Origin: Acidocella sp.
GTDB lineage: Bacteria; Pseudomonadota; Alphaproteobacteria; Acetobacterales; Acetobacteraceae
Assembly (NCBI GenBank): GCA_027308685.1
Contig: DAIDEE010000049.1
Coordinates: forward strand, 1-64,000
DNA: 64,000 bases
Direction: 5' to 3'
Shown in pieces: positions 35,916 through 56,805 of the stretch. A program made the translations under genes and the position numbers. The notes below the pieces were generated by a model that had not been told where the DNA came from, ran no database searches, and saw only the letters and a list, made by a program, of their open reading frames with translations. Each line of letters begins with the position of its first letter. Position 1 is the stretch's first letter.

Positions 35916-35990
35916 TGGGACGTCGCCAAGCGGTAAGGCAGCGGATTTTGATTCCGCCATGCGGAGGTTCGAATCCTCCCGTCCCAGCCA
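35916..35990 (+). tRNA. tRNA-Gln(UUG)
   Basis: A 75-base cloverleaf: acceptor TGGGACG/CGTCCCA, anticodon arm GCGGA-TTTTGAT-TCCGC with anticodon TTG, T arm GGAGG/CCTCC around TTCGAAT, and encoded CCA after discriminator G. It lies between ispE and the hyf-like operon on the same strand. Confidence 0.95.
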
Positions 35991-36056: not shown

Positions 36057-37724
36057 GTGGTGAATCAATATCTTGCTCTATCAATTGGGTTGCCCGGCCA
36101 TGGTTTGCACCTGGCCTACGACCCGCTGGCGTTATTGTTTCTCGCCATTCTCACCCCGCAGATCATTGCCACCGCCCTCGGGCCCGACCGTAAATCCGTC
36201 GCCTACTGGCTGTTTGTGGCCGGCATGGTGCTGGCAGTGCTGGCCGCCGAAGCGTTTACCCTGTTGCTGGGCTTCGAGTTGATGAGTGCGGCTTCCTGGC
36301 TGCTGGTGCTGCGCGGCGACCGTAAACCCGGCACTTTGTACGCCGGCGTCGCGATGTTTTCCGGCGCCTGCCTGTTACCGGCACTATTCCTGCCGCCCGG
36401 CGGCATCGCCTTCACGCTCATTCTGTTGGGCGCCGGGGCCAAGGCCGGGCTGGCCCCCTTGCACGCCTGGCTGCCCCGCGCCCACCCGGCGCCCTCCGCT
36501 GGGGTATCCGCTCTGATGTCGGGCGGCATGGTCAAAGTGGCACTATACATCCTCATTCGCTATGGCTTCATCGTGCTGGGGGGTGCGGCGCAGCCCTGGT
36601 GGGGCACCGCGTTGATCATCGCCGGCAGCGCTTCGGTTCTCATCGGCTCACTCAGGGCGATGCTGGAAGTGGAGCTTAAAACCATTCTGGCCTGCTCCAC
36701 GGTCGAGCATGTCGGCCTGATCGCCGTCGGGCTTGGCATCGCCCTGCGTGCCAAGGCCCTGGGCGACCCCTCCCTCGCCGCGCTGGCGCTGCAAGGCGCA
36801 TTGTTGTGCGCCATTGCCCATGGGCTGTTCAAACCCTTGTTATTCCTCGGCGCGGGCGCGGTAAAACACGCCACCAGCACCACCTCGCTGGACTGGCTGG
36901 GCGGCCTCATTCGGGGTATGCCCAGGCTCGGCGGGCTGATGCTGGCCGGCTGCTTCGGCATGGCAGCGCTCCCGCTTGGCCCCGGCTTTGCGCCGGAATT
37001 TTTGTTACTGCACGCCGTCATCAACGCCGCCGACACCGGCGAGATCATCTCACGCATCGGCTTTACGGCACTCCTCGCCATCCTTGGCCTGAGTGCCGCC
37101 CTGGCCCTGGGGGCGGCGGTGCGGATCATCGGCATCGGTTTCCTGGGCCGACCACGCTCCCTACGCGCTGCCGCCGCCGAGGAGGCCGATAAGCCGGTAC
37201 TGCTCGGCATGGGCCTGCTGGCGCTGCTCTGCCTCCCCGTCGCATTATTTCCGGGCCTGATTTTGCTGTTTCTCAACCCGGTGATCAACCAATTGATCCC
37301 CGATGCTGAACAATTACCCCTCGGCTACGCACCCGCCCCCCTCGCATTTTTGCTGCTGCTATCCGCCGGGGCCGCCTATGCGGTTCTCAAACGCTTTGGC
37401 ACCAAGGCTGAACGCGAAGTGCACGCCTTCAACGGCGGCTTCGGCAAACCCCCGGCCTGGCTGCCGTTCGGCGACCCGATCACTCAAGCTACCGGCACCG
37501 GCTTCGCTGAACCGATAAAGCGAGCACTTGGCGTCGCGATACTCGGCCCCAAAACCATCGACCCTGGCGAGCTTTACGTGCTCGACCCGCTGCGCCGCCT
37601 GAACGTGCGATTCACCCGCGCCGCCGAGCGCGTCCGGCGCGCCACCATCCGCCAGCGCCTGGCCTTCGTATTCATGGCCCTGGTGCTGTTCCTGGCCGCG
37701 CTCGGCTTCGTGCAGGGCACCTGA
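36057..37724 (+). CDS. hyfB: Hyf-like complex subunit HyfB (antiporter-type)
   Basis: A 555-residue polytopic membrane protein related to HyfB/HycC and to NuoL/M/N proton-pumping subunits. About 14 hydrophobic segments are visible. LGFELMSAASWLLVL, GLAPLHAWLPRAHPAPSAGVSALMSGGMVK (given here by its parts LHAWLPRAHPAP and GVSALMSGGMVKVA) and LACSTVEHVGLIAVG carry the Glu, Lys and His residues of the ion path. A C-terminal amphipathic region (VHAFNGGFGKPP) matches HyfB. Start is a GTG at 36057, or the next GTG. It is first in a six-gene set with overlapping ends. Confidence 0.85.
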   Translation: MVNQYLALSIGLPGHGLHLAYDPLALLFLAILTPQIIATALGPDRKSVAYWLFVAGMVLAVLAAEAFTLLLGFELMSAASWLLVLRGDRKPGTLYAGVAMFSGACLLPALFLPPGGIAFTLILLGAGAKAGLAPLHAWLPRAHPAPSAGVSALMSGGMVKVALYILIRYGFIVLGGAAQPWWGTALIIAGSASVLIGSLRAMLEVELKTILACSTVEHVGLIAVGLGIALRAKALGDPSLAALALQGALLCAIAHGLFKPLLFLGAGAVKHATSTTSLDWLGGLIRGMPRLGGLMLAGCFGMAALPLGPGFAPEFLLLHAVINAADTGEIISRIGFTALLAILGLSAALALGAAVRIIGIGFLGRPRSLRAAAAEEADKPVLLGMGLLALLCLPVALFPGLILLFLNPVINQLIPDAEQLPLGYAPAPLAFLLLLSAGAAYAVLKRFGTKAEREVHAFNGGFGKPPAWLPFGDPITQATGTGFAEPIKRALGVAILGPKTIDPGELYVLDPLRRLNVRFTRAAERVRRATIRQRLAFVFMALVLFLAALGFVQGT

Positions 37725-37726
37725 GC

Positions 37727-38692
37727 ATGCTGCACGCCCTCCTCGCCGTTATCGCCACCCTCATCCACACCGCTTTGATGTTTGGCCTCGCCCCGCTGCT
37801 GATCGGCATCGTCACCAAAGCCCGCGCCCGCCTGCTCGGCCGCACCGGCCCACCGTTCCTGCAGCCCTACCGCGACCTTGCCAAGTTACTACGCAAGACC
37901 GCACTGATCCCAGACACCGCCACGCAATTTTACAAAATCTGGCCGTACATCACGCTCAGCGCCACCGCCGTCACCGCGTTGCTGGTGCCGAGCTTTTCTT
38001 TCGGCCTGATCACCGCGCCACTCTCCGATTTCATCACCCTCATCGGCCTGTTTGCCGCCGCCCGCGGTGCTACCATGCTGGCCGGGCTGGAAACCGGCTT
38101 CGGCTTCGGTGGCGCCGGTGCGGCGCGCGACGCTTTATTCAGCCTGTTCACCGAGGCGGCTTTATTGGTGCTGGTGCTCACTTTCGTTATGCTCGCGCAT
38201 ACGCCCACCGTTGACGGCATCGGCACGCAGTTCCGCGACGGCCATATCGGCCTCTCCGTCTCGCTCGGTTTCGCCTTCGCCGCCATGCTGTGCGTGGCAC
38301 TCACCGAAACCGGCCGCATCCCGGTTGATAACCCCGCCGGCCACCTCGAACTCGGCATGGTGCATGAGGCGATGCTGCTGGAATATTCCGGCCGTTACCT
38401 CGCCATGTTCTATTACGCCGCCGCCTTGCGCCTGATCATCTGGATGTCACTGATCAGCGCCATCTTCCTGCCATTTGGTTTAGCCAATGCCGCTAATATG
38501 CTCTCTTGGCCGGGCGGTTTAGTTTTATGGGGCCTCAAACTCATCATCGGGGCTTTTACTCTGGCGGCTTTTGAAGTCGCCACCGCCAAGATGCGCGTCT
38601 TCCGGGTGCCGGAATTTCTCGGCGTGGCGCTGCTGCTTGGCATTCTCTCGAGCGTGTTTTTATTCGTCGCCACCAAGCTGGGTGGCTCATGA
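37727..38692 (+). CDS. hyfC: Hyf-like complex subunit HyfC (NuoH-like)
   Basis: A 321-residue membrane protein related to HyfC/HycD and NuoH, the subunit linking the membrane arm to the peripheral arm. KARARLLGRTGPPFLQPYRD near residue 28 is the conserved cytoplasmic loop, and TGRIPVDNPAGHLELGMVHE holds the acidic residues at the quinone-cavity side. About eight membrane helices. The last four bases overlap the hyfE-like start (ATGA). Confidence 0.9.
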   Translation: MLHALLAVIATLIHTALMFGLAPLLIGIVTKARARLLGRTGPPFLQPYRDLAKLLRKTALIPDTATQFYKIWPYITLSATAVTALLVPSFSFGLITAPLSDFITLIGLFAAARGATMLAGLETGFGFGGAGAARDALFSLFTEAALLVLVLTFVMLAHTPTVDGIGTQFRDGHIGLSVSLGFAFAAMLCVALTETGRIPVDNPAGHLELGMVHEAMLLEYSGRYLAMFYYAAALRLIIWMSLISAIFLPFGLANAANMLSWPGGLVLWGLKLIIGAFTLAAFEVATAKMRVFRVPEFLGVALLLGILSSVFLFVATKLGGS

Positions 38693-39351
38693 GCAACTTC
38701 ATTTATCCTCTCGCGCATCTGCTGGGCGGACTCATTCTCATCTGCGCCTTTGCCCTGCTCTCGCAGCGTCGCCTCGCCGCCATGATCACACTTTACCAGT
38801 TTGAGGCCATGATCCTCACAGCGGCGGCCTTCTGGCAAGGCTACGCCCAGCATGAACTTGCCCTCTATCTCACCGGCATCATCACTCTGGTGATTAAAGC
38901 CATAGCCCTGCCCATCGGCCTGCGCCGCATCGTGAAAAACTTCAACATCGTCCGCGCGGTGGAAACCGCCATGCCGGTTGGCCTCTCCATGATCCTGGGC
39001 GTCGGCCTGATTGGTGTTGCGGTATGGGTCGTGCTGCCCACCACCATGAGCGCTGTGACCTTGACGCGCGAAGACCTCGCCATCTCACTCTCAGTGGTAT
39101 TGTTGGGCCTGTTAGTGATGACCACGCGCCGCAACGCGCTCAGCCAGGTGGTGGGCTTCCTCTCCACCGAAAATGGCCTGGTGCTGGCCGCCATTGGCAT
39201 GCCGGGGATGCCGTTCGTCGCCGAACTCTCGGTGGCTCTATTGGTGCTCATGGCCTTCCTGGTCGTCGGCGTATTTTTATTCCGTATCCGTGAGCATTTC
39301 GACAATCTCGATATCGCCGGGATCGAATCCATTGAGAAGCAGGGCCGATGA
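38689..39351 (+). CDS. hyfE: Hyf-like complex subunit HyfE (NuoK-like)
   Basis: A 220-residue membrane protein of the HyfE family, whose first half is NuoK-like. LYQFEAMILTAAAFWQGY carries the membrane Glu of NuoK. Six to seven hydrophobic segments follow, with LSTENGLVLAAIGMPGMPF a HyfE hallmark. The C-terminus is an acidic cytoplasmic tail. It overlaps its neighbours by four bases on each side. Confidence 0.88.
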   Translation: MSNFIYPLAHLLGGLILICAFALLSQRRLAAMITLYQFEAMILTAAAFWQGYAQHELALYLTGIITLVIKAIALPIGLRRIVKNFNIVRAVETAMPVGLSMILGVGLIGVAVWVVLPTTMSAVTLTREDLAISLSVVLLGLLVMTTRRNALSQVVGFLSTENGLVLAAIGMPGMPFVAELSVALLVLMAFLVVGVFLFRIREHFDNLDIAGIESIEKQGR

Positions 39352-40802
39352 GTATTGCCCTGCTCGCCGTTCTGGTCCCACTGCTTGCCGCTATCCCGCT
39401 GGCGCTGGCGGGCAGCGCCACCAGCGCTTCGTATTTCAATCTTGCCCTCAACGCCGTGACGTTCGCACTAACGCTCGGCGTTGGCTTCAGCCCCGGCACC
39501 GGCATGCTTCACGCCGATCATCTTGGCATCATCTTCGGAATCCTCAGCGGCTTTGTCGGCTTCACCACCTCGATCAACAACATCGGCTTCATCAAAAGCG
39601 AACAAGGCCGCAAATCCATACGCCGCTGGCGGCTGTATCACGCCATGTGCCAGGTGATGCTGGGCACCACATTGCTGGGCCTGTACGCCGATAACATCGG
39701 CCTGCTGTGGGTGGCGGTTGAAGGAGCCACCATTTCCGCGACACTTGGCGTGTCACTCTCGCGCACGGCGTCAGCACTCGAGGCCGCCTGGAAATATTTC
39801 ATCCTGGGCGGGGTCGGCATCGCGCTGGCTTTGTTCGGCATCATGCTCACTTATCTCGCGGCCCAGCCAGCGCTTGGCCCTGGCATTGCCGCCATGAGCT
39901 TTAACGCCCTCACGCAACATGCAGCGCAACTCGATGGCTCGCTGATGACCCTGGCCTTCGTGTTTTTATTATTCGGTTTCGGCACCAAAGCGGCTTTAGT
40001 ACCGCTGCATGGCTGGCTGCCGGATGCCTACGCCGAAGGCCCCATTCCGCTCACCGCCACTCTTTCGGTGCTGTTGCTGAACGTCGGCTTGCTGGCACTG
40101 TTGCGGTTCCGCCATTTGATGTCAGCCAACGCCGCCGCTGGCGCCGGTGCCATGCACCCTGGCCCGTTCCTGCTTATTCTCGGCCTCGCCTCATTATTCC
40201 TCACCGGCTTTTCGCTGTGGCGGCGGCGCGACTCCCGGCGGTTTTTCGGCTTCTCCTCAATCGAGCATTCCGGCATCGCCATCTTTGCCTTCGGCATCGG
40301 CGGCCCCGCCATCATCTTCGGCGGCCTGTTGCATATGCTGCTGCACACGCTGCTGAAATCGGCGTTGTTTCAAGCGCTCACCAAAGCCGCTCTGGCGCGC
40401 GGCAGCGCTGCCCCCGGCAACTACGGGTTCTCACACCTGCGCGGCATGATCGCCACCAACAAACACCTCGGCTGGCTGCTGGTCATTTGCATTTTCGCCC
40501 TAACCGGCCTGCCGCCCTCGGGACTATTCACCAGCGAATACCTCATCATCAGCCAGACCATCATCCGCGACCCGTATTATTCACTCCCGCTGGGCGCCGG
40601 ACTGCTGCTCTGCGCCATCGCCATCATCCGCCAGGTCGGCCCGGTGGGTTTTGCCCCCGCCCCCGCCAGCGCCAAACCGCAAAAAGCCGGGGCTGATATC
40701 ATCACCATCTATGCCCATCTCATTCTGGTGCTGCTGCTGGCCTTTGCCATGCCGGTTGCCCTCGTCACCCTGCTCTCTCACATTGCGGACACCCTGCAAT
40801 GA
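39348..40802 (+). CDS. hyfF: Hyf-like complex subunit HyfF (antiporter-type)
   Basis: A 484-residue NuoL/M/N-related proton-channel subunit of the HyfF type. LWVAVEGATISATLGVSLS, KAALVPLHGWLPDAYAEGP and FSSIEHSGIAIFAFGIGG carry the conserved Glu, Lys and His of the translocation path. A late PPSGLFTSEYLI loop matches HyfF. With HyfB it gives the complex two antiporter-like modules. Overlaps hyfE and hyfG by four bases each. Confidence 0.88.
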   Translation: MSIALLAVLVPLLAAIPLALAGSATSASYFNLALNAVTFALTLGVGFSPGTGMLHADHLGIIFGILSGFVGFTTSINNIGFIKSEQGRKSIRRWRLYHAMCQVMLGTTLLGLYADNIGLLWVAVEGATISATLGVSLSRTASALEAAWKYFILGGVGIALALFGIMLTYLAAQPALGPGIAAMSFNALTQHAAQLDGSLMTLAFVFLLFGFGTKAALVPLHGWLPDAYAEGPIPLTATLSVLLLNVGLLALLRFRHLMSANAAAGAGAMHPGPFLLILGLASLFLTGFSLWRRRDSRRFFGFSSIEHSGIAIFAFGIGGPAIIFGGLLHMLLHTLLKSALFQALTKAALARGSAAPGNYGFSHLRGMIATNKHLGWLLVICIFALTGLPPSGLFTSEYLIISQTIIRDPYYSLPLGAGLLLCAIAIIRQVGPVGFAPAPASAKPQKAGADIITIYAHLILVLLLAFAMPVALVTLLSHIADTLQ

Positions 40803-42175
40803 CCCCGCCTAATCTTTCAGCCCATTTCTGGCAAAATCACAGCGGCGAATTTATTGCATTATGGACCAGCGGCGAGCTGGCCTATGCGCTGTTCGACACC
40901 GGCCTGATCACCACCAGCCTTGAGGACGGCACGTACCCGGCGCTCTCGCCCAAGCACCCCGGCGCGGCCTGGTTCGAGAAACTCGGCCAGGACCTCAACG
41001 GCCACAAAGCCAGCGGCGTAACCCACGCCAACACCGCCATCGAACATTTCCTCAGCCCCAACGGCACCGCCCCCTGGCCAGAATTCCGCCCTGCCCCTGG
41101 CGATGGCGTGCACCAGATGGCGGTTGGCCCGATCCACGCCGGCATCATCGAACCCGGCCATTTCCGTTTCTCGATCATCGGTGAAAAGGTCCTGAAGCTC
41201 GAAGCTCGCCTCGGCTATACCCACAAGGGCACGCTGGCGCTGATGCGCGGCAAATCGCCACGCAACGCCGCCCGCTTCGCCGCCCGCATCTCGGGCGATG
41301 CCACCGTGGCGCATTCGCTGGCCTTCGCCCACGCCACCGAGGCCGCCCTCGGCCTCACCCCGCCGCCGCGCGCGGTACATTTACGCGCCGTGATGGCCGA
41401 GCTGGAGCGCATGGCCAACCATACCTCCGACATAGGCGCCATCGCCGGTGACGCCGGGTTCGCCTTCCTTGACGCCCGCTTCGCCTGGCACCGCGAATCC
41501 CTCTGCGCCGCCGCCAGCGCCGCCTTCGGCCACCGGCTGATGATGGACATGGTCATCCCCGGCGGTATCGCGGGCGACATTAAAACCGGCGGCGCCGATG
41601 CCATCCGCCGCACCCTCGATGCGTTGGAAACCGAACTACCCGGCCTGACGCGGGTATTCGAGGATTACGCCAGCCTGCAGGACCGTCTGGTCGGCACCGG
41701 CCATATCGGAACCCACCTCGCCGCCCGCTACGCCGCCGGCGGCGTCACTGGCCGCGCCTCGGGCCGCCAGACTGACGCCCGCATCAACCCCGGCTACGCC
41801 CCCTACGAGCTGATGGAACTCAGCGTGCCGGTGGAAACCGAGGGCGACGTGGCCGCCCGCGTCAAAATCCGGCTGGCCGAACTGGCCGAAAGCTACCGCA
41901 TGATCCGCACCCTGCTGAACCACCTGCCCGATGGCCAGATCGCCCTCGCCCCGCCCGCCACCTCCGGCATGGGGTTGGGTGTGGCGGAAAGCTTCCGCGG
42001 TCCGGTCTGGCACTGGTTGAATATCGACACTGGATTGATCACCGACATCTTCCTCGCCGATGCCAGCACCCTGCATTGGCCGCTGGTCGAACATGCAGCC
42101 TGCACCAGCATCATCGCAGATTTCCCGCTGATCAATAAATCCGTCAACGCGTCATATTCCGGAGTCGACCTGTAA
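40799..42175 (+). CDS. hyfG: Hyf-like large subunit lacking [NiFe] ligands
   Basis: A 458-residue fusion of a NuoC-like N-terminus and a NuoD/[NiFe]-large-subunit C-terminus, as in HyfG. The four cysteines that bind nickel and iron are gone. The proximal motif reads RISGDA (163-168) where hydrogenases have RICGIC, and the protein ends SVNASYSGVDL where DPCxxC is expected, with Ser452 and Gly455 in the ligand positions. Only two cysteines remain and they do not pair. The surrounding fold is well kept (VAHSLAFAHATE, ELERMANHTSDIG). It cannot be a hydrogenase by known chemistry and belongs with energy-converting-hydrogenase-related (Ehr) complexes. Confidence 0.88.
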   Translation: MTPPNLSAHFWQNHSGEFIALWTSGELAYALFDTGLITTSLEDGTYPALSPKHPGAAWFEKLGQDLNGHKASGVTHANTAIEHFLSPNGTAPWPEFRPAPGDGVHQMAVGPIHAGIIEPGHFRFSIIGEKVLKLEARLGYTHKGTLALMRGKSPRNAARFAARISGDATVAHSLAFAHATEAALGLTPPPRAVHLRAVMAELERMANHTSDIGAIAGDAGFAFLDARFAWHRESLCAAASAAFGHRLMMDMVIPGGIAGDIKTGGADAIRRTLDALETELPGLTRVFEDYASLQDRLVGTGHIGTHLAARYAAGGVTGRASGRQTDARINPGYAPYELMELSVPVETEGDVAARVKIRLAELAESYRMIRTLLNHLPDGQIALAPPATSGMGLGVAESFRGPVWHWLNIDTGLITDIFLADASTLHWPLVEHAACTSIIADFPLINKSVNASYSGVDL

Positions 42176-42696
42176 TGGTGTGGTCCACGCTCGCGCAGCA
42201 TCTGCTCACCAAACCCCGCGCCCCGCGCGAGGCCGGGCACAGCACCGCCGCTGCCCTGGCTGAGCGCCTGCAAAATCTCTCCAATGAAAAACTTGGCCGC
42301 AGCCTCGCCATCCGCCATGTTGATGCAGGCTCCTGCAACGGCTGCGAGTTGGAACTGCGCGCCATTCAGAACATGGTGTACGACCTCACCCAATACGGCC
42401 TGTCCTTCACCCCCAGCCCGCGCCATGCCGATGTATTGCTCATCACCGGCGTTGCCGCCCGCAACATGGCCGAGGCGCTGCGCCAGACTCGCGCCGCCAT
42501 GCCGGACCCGGTTTTCACCATCGCGGTAGGTGACTGCGCGGTTGACGGCGGCGTGTTCAAAGGCTCCCCCGCCATTACCGGCGGCGCTGATTCCATTCTC
42601 ACGGTTGATTTAATGATCTCAGGCTGCCCGCCCACCCCAGGGCAGATTATCGACGGGCTATTATCCCTGATCGAGGCCCATACCGGGGGGAAATAA
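42175..42696 (+). CDS. hyfI: Hyf-like small subunit HyfI (NuoB-like)
   Basis: A 173-residue NuoB/HyfI protein that binds the proximal [4Fe-4S] cluster. All four ligands are present: C54 and C57 in SCNGCELEL, C121 in GDCAVDGG and C151 in GCPPTPGQI. Electron transfer to this subunit is therefore intact even though the partner large subunit lacks a NiFe site. It shares one base with hyfG. No ferredoxin-like HyfH or formate dehydrogenase gene follows. Confidence 0.9.
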   Translation: MVWSTLAQHLLTKPRAPREAGHSTAAALAERLQNLSNEKLGRSLAIRHVDAGSCNGCELELRAIQNMVYDLTQYGLSFTPSPRHADVLLITGVAARNMAEALRQTRAAMPDPVFTIAVGDCAVDGGVFKGSPAITGGADSILTVDLMISGCPPTPGQIIDGLLSLIEAHTGGK

Positions 42697-56532: not shown

Positions 56533-56599
56533 ATCCAGGCTCACTCTACCAATAACGCCCGGCCGCCCAACGCGGTAATGGCGTATGCGCACGCCATAG

Positions 56600-56656
56600 C
56601 CTCTTTAGCGCGTTTATTTAACCTCGCCGCAATCCGGCCGGACAAATCACGAGGTC
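56600..56656 (-). promoter_or_regulatory. SAM-II riboswitch upstream of metZ
   Basis: On the minus strand CCTCG-TGATTTG starts a P1 stem that closes with CGAGG. ATTGC lies in loop 1, and GTTAAA then GCTAAAGAGG follow. Order and bases match the SAM-II class (P1 stem, GAUUU, AUUGC, GUUAAA-like, GCUAAA, then the ribosome-binding site), about 55 bases in all. SAM binding forms a pseudoknot that hides the AGAGG site and lowers metZ translation. SAM-II before metA or metZ is well established in alphaproteobacteria. Confidence 0.88.
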
Positions 56657-56731
56657 CTTTTGGGTAACCTCGCTGGCTTGCATGGTCAATACTTGCGCGG
56701 TCAATGCTGGCGGATTATCACTTACCGCAAG

Positions 56732-56805
56732 GCGGGTATGATGTAATGGTAGCCTGTTAGCTTCCCAAGCTTGATGCGCGGGTTCGATTCCCGCTACCCG
56801 CTCCA
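56732..56805 (+). tRNA. tRNA-Gly(CCC)
   Basis: A 74-base cloverleaf: acceptor GCGGGTA/TACCCGC, anticodon loop TTCCCAA giving anticodon CCC, T arm GCGGG/CCCGC around TTCGATT, discriminator T and encoded CCA. A long palindromic repeat starts directly after it. Confidence 0.93.

Follow-up and report, generated by a model that had tools for sequence, protein, structure and literature searches.

What does a complex of the hydrogenase-4 type do once its large subunit has no [NiFe] site? The question is raised by an operon at positions 36057-42696 of a 64,000-nucleotide stretch of Acidocella sp. DNA (contig DAIDEE010000049.1, hereafter the window). Six consecutive, tightly packed open reading frames (ORFs) on the plus strand occupy this segment in the order hyfB-C-E-F-G-I, and their profile matches (NCBIfam, Pfam) were to the HyfB-, HyfC/NuoH-, HyfE-, HyfF-, NuoD/HyfG- and NuoB/HyfI-type families; the operon proteins scored below the curated cut-offs of the hydrogenase-4 equivalog models in NCBIfam. 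A first-pass annotation of this DNA had described a hydrogenase-4-like complex without a [NiFe] site, related to Ehr (Ech-hydrogenase-related) complexes. This was borne out, and the large subunit HyfG carries RISGDA and NASYSG at the places of the two ligand motifs (Table 1). Our analysis suggests, with roughly even chances, that the product is a one-cluster redox-driven proton pump, coupled via the beta1-beta2 loop of HyfG, which would have descended from a group 4 hydrogenase and would no longer make or use H2.

Judged from gene content and alignment, the operon is an Ehr complex, a known family whose function is unsolved in the literature; the parts of papers in which Ehr is mentioned still call its function unknown. 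The Ehr set comprises six genes in one operon, two encoding antiporter-like subunits, one a NuoH-like and one a HyfE-like protein, together with a large and a small subunit, and the same set was found in relatives. In a quick tree NuoD split off with an SH-aLRT support of 100, while 46 Ehr rows grouped together at 99 and branched with the group 4 hydrogenases. The named relatives whose large subunits were 93-95% identical were metagenome-assembled genomes of Acidocella. Among 200 genomes of Acetobacteraceae, 134 had a match at E 1e-40 or better. The sample of the phylum gave 74 matches in 398 genomes at 1e-35, of which 63 (window included) were at least 39% identical and 11 were 28-30% identical; eight of these distant ones were retrieved, seven with the four Cys of a [NiFe] site and one (L194) without. 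A second Ehr subtype, about 45-48% identical, has a small XRE-like helix-turn-helix (HTH) gene, recognized by eye, before hyfB in L057, L058, L124, L125, L127, L129, L132, L133 and L135; this gene is absent from the window.

The named Ehr systems, such as ehrABCDLS of Methylacidiphilum, GSU0739-45 of Geobacter and the Rv0081-87 region of M. tuberculosis, were compared by their descriptions in papers. As described there, they resemble the window in having NuoL-like, HyfE-like, large and small subunits, as a rule no [NiFe] ligands and an unsolved function, and the Methylacidiphilum operon has the six-gene set. They differ from the Acidocella operon, whose HyfB is without the first two transmembrane helices (TM1-2) and the Cys of its ND3-like loop, and next to which no formate gene adjoins. 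The family is thus already known, and the new findings are comparative, namely a conserved new pocket, a trimmed HyfB in Acidocella and the loss of the pump along several lineages. Listings of open-licence PubMed Central papers showed no account of pump-lost Ehr and none of Ehr in Acidocella, which is weak evidence of absence.

The large subunit was aligned as 146 distinct sequences including that of the window, together with E. coli HycE, HyfG and NuoCD and the genome's own NuoD proteins. The loci were found via similarity to the window's large subunit and chosen for diversity, so that the fractions given here describe the sample, not nature. The four-Cys [NiFe] set was kept in nine sequences (hydrogenase-type) and missing in 137, and across all of these 137 Ehr-type sequences only three cells at the four ligand places bore a Cys. 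The replacements followed a common pattern (S165 in 122, D167 in 125, N450 in 122, S452 in 119 and G455 in 134), and E118, the retained Glu of the hydrogenase beta1-beta2 loop, and R400 were found in 127 and 131, respectively. Because one replacement pattern is shared by 137 of the 146 large subunits, the missing [NiFe] site is not due to chance, and the conservation indicates a maintained pocket at the emptied site, as opposed to decay. One large subunit (L145, G172:C107) combines four Cys and an Ehr-like VGPIHAGIIEPGHF loop with the absence of a C-terminal tail, and its HyfF lies in two overlapping frames; it is a possible link between hydrogenases and Ehr. No paralogous large subunit with intact ligands was found near the operon, and the other Complex1_49kDa matches of the genome (G000) were three NuoD/NuoCD proteins. 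The sole large subunit with intact ligands in the genome (C8:36345-38138, RICGVC and DPCLAC) is of group 1 type and lies on another contig. Its surroundings (G000:C8:10000-47000; L007, L159) hold a copy of complex I, RuBisCO, the group-1-type uptake hydrogenase and apparent maturation genes, perhaps an autotrophy region.

The small subunit HyfI has all four Cys of the proximal cluster, as the earlier annotation had stated, in the hydrogenase spacing CNGC...GDC...GCPP and with the same motif length as HycG. Of 81 pump-intact loci, 80 have these four Cys; L051, the remaining one, is interrupted by a contig end. The claim that no HyfH-like ferredoxin gene accompanies the operon also held, since the only three HyfH-like matches in the genome sit in its three complex I operons. 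These operons are on C66, C50 and C8 of G000, one with a separate NuoD and two with a fused NuoCD. Because HyfI has four Cys and HyfH is missing, a single [4Fe-4S] cluster, whose binding is predicted, would be the only redox centre seen encoded by the operon.

All 12 scored pump residues of HyfB and HyfF (Table 1) are present in the window, and at these sites 864 of 872 cells in the 75 pump-intact rows of the tree were identical to it. The first-pass annotation had regarded both antiporter-type subunits as intact, which is right for the pump residues. However, the Acidocella HyfB has about 555 residues compared with 665-680 in most others, TM1 and TM2 (about 55 residues) are missing, and the equivalent of HycC Cys537 in the ND3-like loop is Gly. 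There is no room for TM1-2 in the window, because the tRNA gene lies 66 bases 5' of hyfB.

Relatives with a dismantled pump probably show which parts link the two halves of the complex. HyfB or HyfF data were available for 110 loci, comprising three hydrogenases, two members of a separate basal group and 105 other Ehr loci. Pump loss was defined as two or more substitutions at the 12 pump sites, a threshold set after an earlier tree had been seen; 90 of the 105 Ehr loci had at most one substitution and 15 had two or more. The pump-lost loci are not random wrecks, as the genes found stay long open frames. The four HyfI Cys were kept in 13 of the 14 pump-lost loci where HyfI was found, the exception being L141 (G215), in which HyfI has one cluster Cys left and HyfB is without the pump residues. 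For residues conserved in at least 95% of the intact rows, mean retention in the pump-lost rows was 0.83 in HyfI, 0.75 in HyfG and 0.50-0.59 in HyfB, HyfC and HyfF. Within HyfG the loop residues were largely lost (V109 kept in 1/15, H113 in 3/15, A114 in 1/15 and I117 in 0/15), as were D218, N446 and Y453 (each 0/15) and K447 (2/15). H208, R319 and E361, the equivalents of the proposed proton path of HycE, were kept in 15/15.

In the formate hydrogenlyase (FHL) structure, as described in PMC9474812, HycD Phe122 and HycE His188 provide the pocket for HycC Cys537. The residues corresponding to these three are the ND3-loop Cys of HyfB (for HycC Cys537), HyfC F127 and HyfG H113, and the last two were retained in 1/14 and 3/15 pump-lost rows and the Cys in 0/13. 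The ND3-loop Cys was present in 52 of 71 intact rows; because it is absent from the other 19 and is Gly in Acidocella, the pump can be kept without it.

Pump loss was mapped on a quick tree with long branches, built without the pump and loop columns under test. Seven changes were counted, of which supported branches force five; the approximately unbiased (AU) test rejected a single origin (p-AU 8.7e-5). V109 and N446 were each lost with the pump in five of five independent pairs (sign test 0.0625, the minimum for five pairs). That the pump was lost in several lineages makes the beta1-beta2 loop a candidate coupling element.

A source of electrons was sought among partner genes. Conserved neighbours in other Ehr loci, a check proposed with the first annotation, amounted to the same six-gene set in relatives, and nothing common was found next to the operon. 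Downstream, no gene was common across the loci compared. Upstream there were the XRE-like HTH gene in nine loci, malate dehydrogenase in 14 Acidocella-type loci, and TPR-protein and ispE genes in the window's clade, none of them a redox partner. A pyridine-nucleotide-disulfide-oxidoreductase-like gene (by eye) lies 6 bases past hyfI in one locus only (L210:11051-12457).

Formate dehydrogenase (FDH) genes had been called absent, and none occurs at the locus, but the genome does encode an FDH (TIGR01591, over the cut-off) on another contig (G000:C73:190268-192295). Co-occurrence was scored in the 200 Acetobacteraceae genomes, with Ehr-positive meaning E 1e-60 or better, FDH meaning TIGR01591, and RuBisCO as the single control family. 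FDH matched in 88 of 122 Ehr genomes versus 25 of 78 others (odds ratio 5.5), while RuBisCO gave 32 of 122 versus 19 of 78 (odds ratio 1.1). When 12 genomes with a weak large-subunit match (E 1e-60 to 1e-40) were moved to the Ehr side, the table became 90, 44, 23, 43 and the odds ratio 3.8. One locus (L144:557-11007) has NuoE/F-like and FdhA-like genes followed by hyfC-E-F-G-I-B; its large subunit is without the four Cys and branches outside the Ehr clade, and its HyfI has a longer N-terminus. In G118 about 5 kb separate an FDH from a match resembling L144. Ehr subunits of Geobacter are reported at higher abundance on formate in the part of PMC7894505 that deals with them, and an FDH-Ehr complex is proposed for Margulisbacteria and relatives in the corresponding part of PMC6349859. 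Formate-linked donation to Ehr may be followed as a lead, though a doubtful one.

From the operon, its motifs and their conservation, the purifying selection described below and the joint loss of pump and loop residues in relatives, all of which were observed, we infer a bound cluster, electron flow, proton pumping and its direction. A soluble donor would probably feed electrons to the HyfI [4Fe-4S] cluster from the side on which HyfH would otherwise sit. In HyfG, the cavity that once held the [NiFe] site (now with Ser165, Asp167, Asn450, Ser452 and Gly455 beside the retained Glu118 and Arg400) would accept the electrons or hold the acceptor. Chemistry in this cavity may shift the beta1-beta2 loop (VGPxHAGIIE), which is predicted to pack on the HyfC loop and the ND3-like loop of HyfB, and movement of the loop would drive protons through HyfC, HyfB and HyfF. 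The suggestion in the first annotation that electron flow is coupled to ion transport is thus backed by the conserved pump and loop residues and stays a prediction. A wider proposal, which we put forward tentatively and hold to be somewhat short of even, is that Ehr is a module with a separable redox core and proton pump. At least five lineages would have lost the pump with the beta1-beta2 loop (V109, H113, A114, I117), N446 and the Cys-Phe-His latch and kept the cluster and the H208/E361/R319 path; uncoupled forms of this kind would show where coupling resides in the complex I superfamily, and the change of the canopy from Asp to Asn would signal a new chemistry involving neither hydrogen nor quinone.

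Several points weigh against a coupled proton pump in the window. Pumping there is not assured, as HyfB is without TM1-2 and the latch Cys and a pump-lost locus (L059) belongs to the same genus. Pocket residues erode too in the pump-lost rows, S165 being kept in 6/15 and D167 in 8/15. The exact count of pump losses is uncertain owing to the long branches of L146 and L141, and sign tests on five pairs cannot go below p 0.05. The change of the canopy Asp to Asn drops a conserved residue, and the acid-base chemistry at the putative site must therefore differ. The geometry of the pocket was taken from homology, because the HyfG model that AlphaFold gave with 14 sequences was poor, with a mean pLDDT of 63.5. 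No conserved partner gene was found beside the operon, where small partners may be missed, ORF calling in the GC-rich loci being noisy and opposite-strand ORFs winning by length. FDH had no match in 34 of the 122 Ehr genomes, and its co-occurrence with Ehr is a correlation whose statistics ignore descent and genome size.

An alternative that we consider unlikely is a minimal complex-I-like quinone oxidoreductase, in which a soluble donor and ubiquinone would exchange electrons in the emptied pocket, coupled to pumping. Complex I belongs to the same superfamily and shares the Q-module and membrane fold, its quinone chamber lies between large subunit, small subunit and membrane anchor according to the comparison in PMC7684303, and Ehr is common in Acetobacteraceae. 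However, the His and Tyr at the quinone head-group positions of the aligned NuoD proteins are Ile117 and Gly166 in HyfG, and complex-I-style quinone reduction is less likely because both residues are absent. The canopy aspartate, strictly conserved across the superfamily and required for quinone reduction by complex I as stated in the canopy discussion of PMC9474812, is Asn in 122 of 137 Ehr large subunits and in all 75 pump-intact rows of the tree; 73 of these rows also have Asn at the position of HycE Ser283, the second canopy residue. HyfI carries CxxC where complex I has tandem Cys, and the window operon is without a NADH module and NuoI. On these alignments the HyfG pocket, though conserved, matches neither a hydrogenase site nor the quinone site of complex I.

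It is quite unlikely that the operon is a decaying or purely structural remnant, either a complex on its way out after losing its enzyme or an ion channel or antiporter only. Pump-lost members and the cluster-lost L141 exist, and the Acidocella HyfB is trimmed. Against this, purifying selection acts on each of the six genes (NG86 dN/dS 0.04-0.16 in three pairwise comparisons within Acidocella), a match of at least 61% identity, in some cases a fragment, occurs in 36 of 37 congeneric genomes including the window's (the miss, G010, is 83% complete), and the cluster Cys persist in nearly all pump-lost loci.

Reduction of a small molecule at the HyfI cluster as active site, as in the sulfane sulfur reductase MBS of Pyrococcus, appears improbable. 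MBS is a metal-site-free relative with antiporter-like subunits for which catalysis by the proximal cluster is proposed, as set out in PMC7684303, and the Ehr pocket is likewise emptied yet conserved. In that account MBS has a ferredoxin-type MbsN and a three-Cys cluster, and two of its four former ligand Cys remain. Catalysis by MBS needs a shortened motif that leaves one iron Cys-free, whereas HyfI has the full hydrogenase spacing and four Cys; the beta1-beta2 Glu of the hydrogenase MBH is given there as absent from MBS, but is kept in Ehr as E118. Among the neighbours of the operon, which were only partly scanned, no sulfur gene was noticed.

That the complex is a hydrogenase still, with unusual ligands, is extremely improbable, for although HycE (7z0s_E) was both the closest sequence match of HyfG and the best Foldseek match of its weak model (supportive only), none of the four Cys is present in the window, the fourth ligand is Gly in 134 of 137 and a C-terminal tail for the maturation protease is missing. 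HyfG stops at L458, which aligns with the C-terminal residue of mature hydrogenase, and nothing follows this position in 137 of 137, while HycE, E. coli HyfG and eight of nine sampled hydrogenases have 31-32 further residues (the ninth is L145). The window shares with the E. coli FHL/hydrogenase-4 complexes (Hyc, Hyf) the best HyfG match, the proximal cluster spacing and the beta1-beta2 loop Glu; it differs in the replaced Ni-Fe Cys, the canopy Asn and the absence of HyfA, HyfD and HyfH genes and of an FDH subunit. The marks of group 4 [NiFe] hydrogenases, namely RxCxxC and DPCxxC, a HycF/HyfH-type subunit and a C-terminal extension that is cleaved off upon Ni insertion (though L145 has none), were all missing from the window.

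The positions of the features are listed in Table 1. On the 5' side the operon is preceded by a TPR-protein gene, ispE (both named by eye from translations) and then tRNA-Gln, so that it starts right after a tRNA gene lying between ispE and hyfB; in many other Acidocella loci hyfB is preceded by malate dehydrogenase. The 3' neighbours, a DUF3576 protein and a porin, are encoded on the opposite strand. Elsewhere in the window a SAM_alpha riboswitch (56584-56663, minus strand) lies beside tRNA-Gly (56732-56805).

Table 1. Features of the Ehr operon and its 5' border in the window.
Feature	Position	Strand	Basis
tRNA-Gln (ttg), directly 5' of hyfB	35916..35990	+	ARAGORN, Rfam
hyfB (EhrA-like), antiporter-like subunit with C-terminal ND3-like part, without TM1-2	36057..37724	+	family profiles, alignment
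Codons of HyfB pump residues E74, K129, K160, K208, H255, K259, E314	36276..36998	+	conservation
hyfC (NuoH/HycD-like membrane anchor), ND1-type loop ETGRIPVDNPAGHLELGMVHEAM	37727..38692	+	family profiles
hyfE-like membrane subunit	38689..39351	+	NF008556, E 8e-18, below its cut-off; no Pfam match
hyfF, second antiporter-like subunit, pump residues E125, K149, K214, K337, E397	39348..40802	+	profiles, conservation
hyfG (EhrL-like) large subunit, without [NiFe] ligands and C-terminal extension	40799..42175	+	Pfam, alignment
RISGDA, HyfG residues 163-168, in place of RxCGxC	41285..41302	+	alignment
NASYSG, HyfG residues 450-455, in place of DPCxxC; N450 in place of canopy aspartate	42146..42163	+	alignment
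hyfI (EhrS-like) small subunit	42175..42696	+	family profiles
Codons of HyfI cluster ligands Cys54, Cys57, Cys121, Cys151	42334..42627	+	alignment

With one cluster, six genes and no metal site, Ehr is among the simplest forms of its superfamily. The conserved pocket and the pump-lost relatives make both its function and its coupling approachable by mutants. If the proposal holds true, Ehr complexes that evolution has uncoupled would point out the element responsible for coupling throughout the complex I superfamily.

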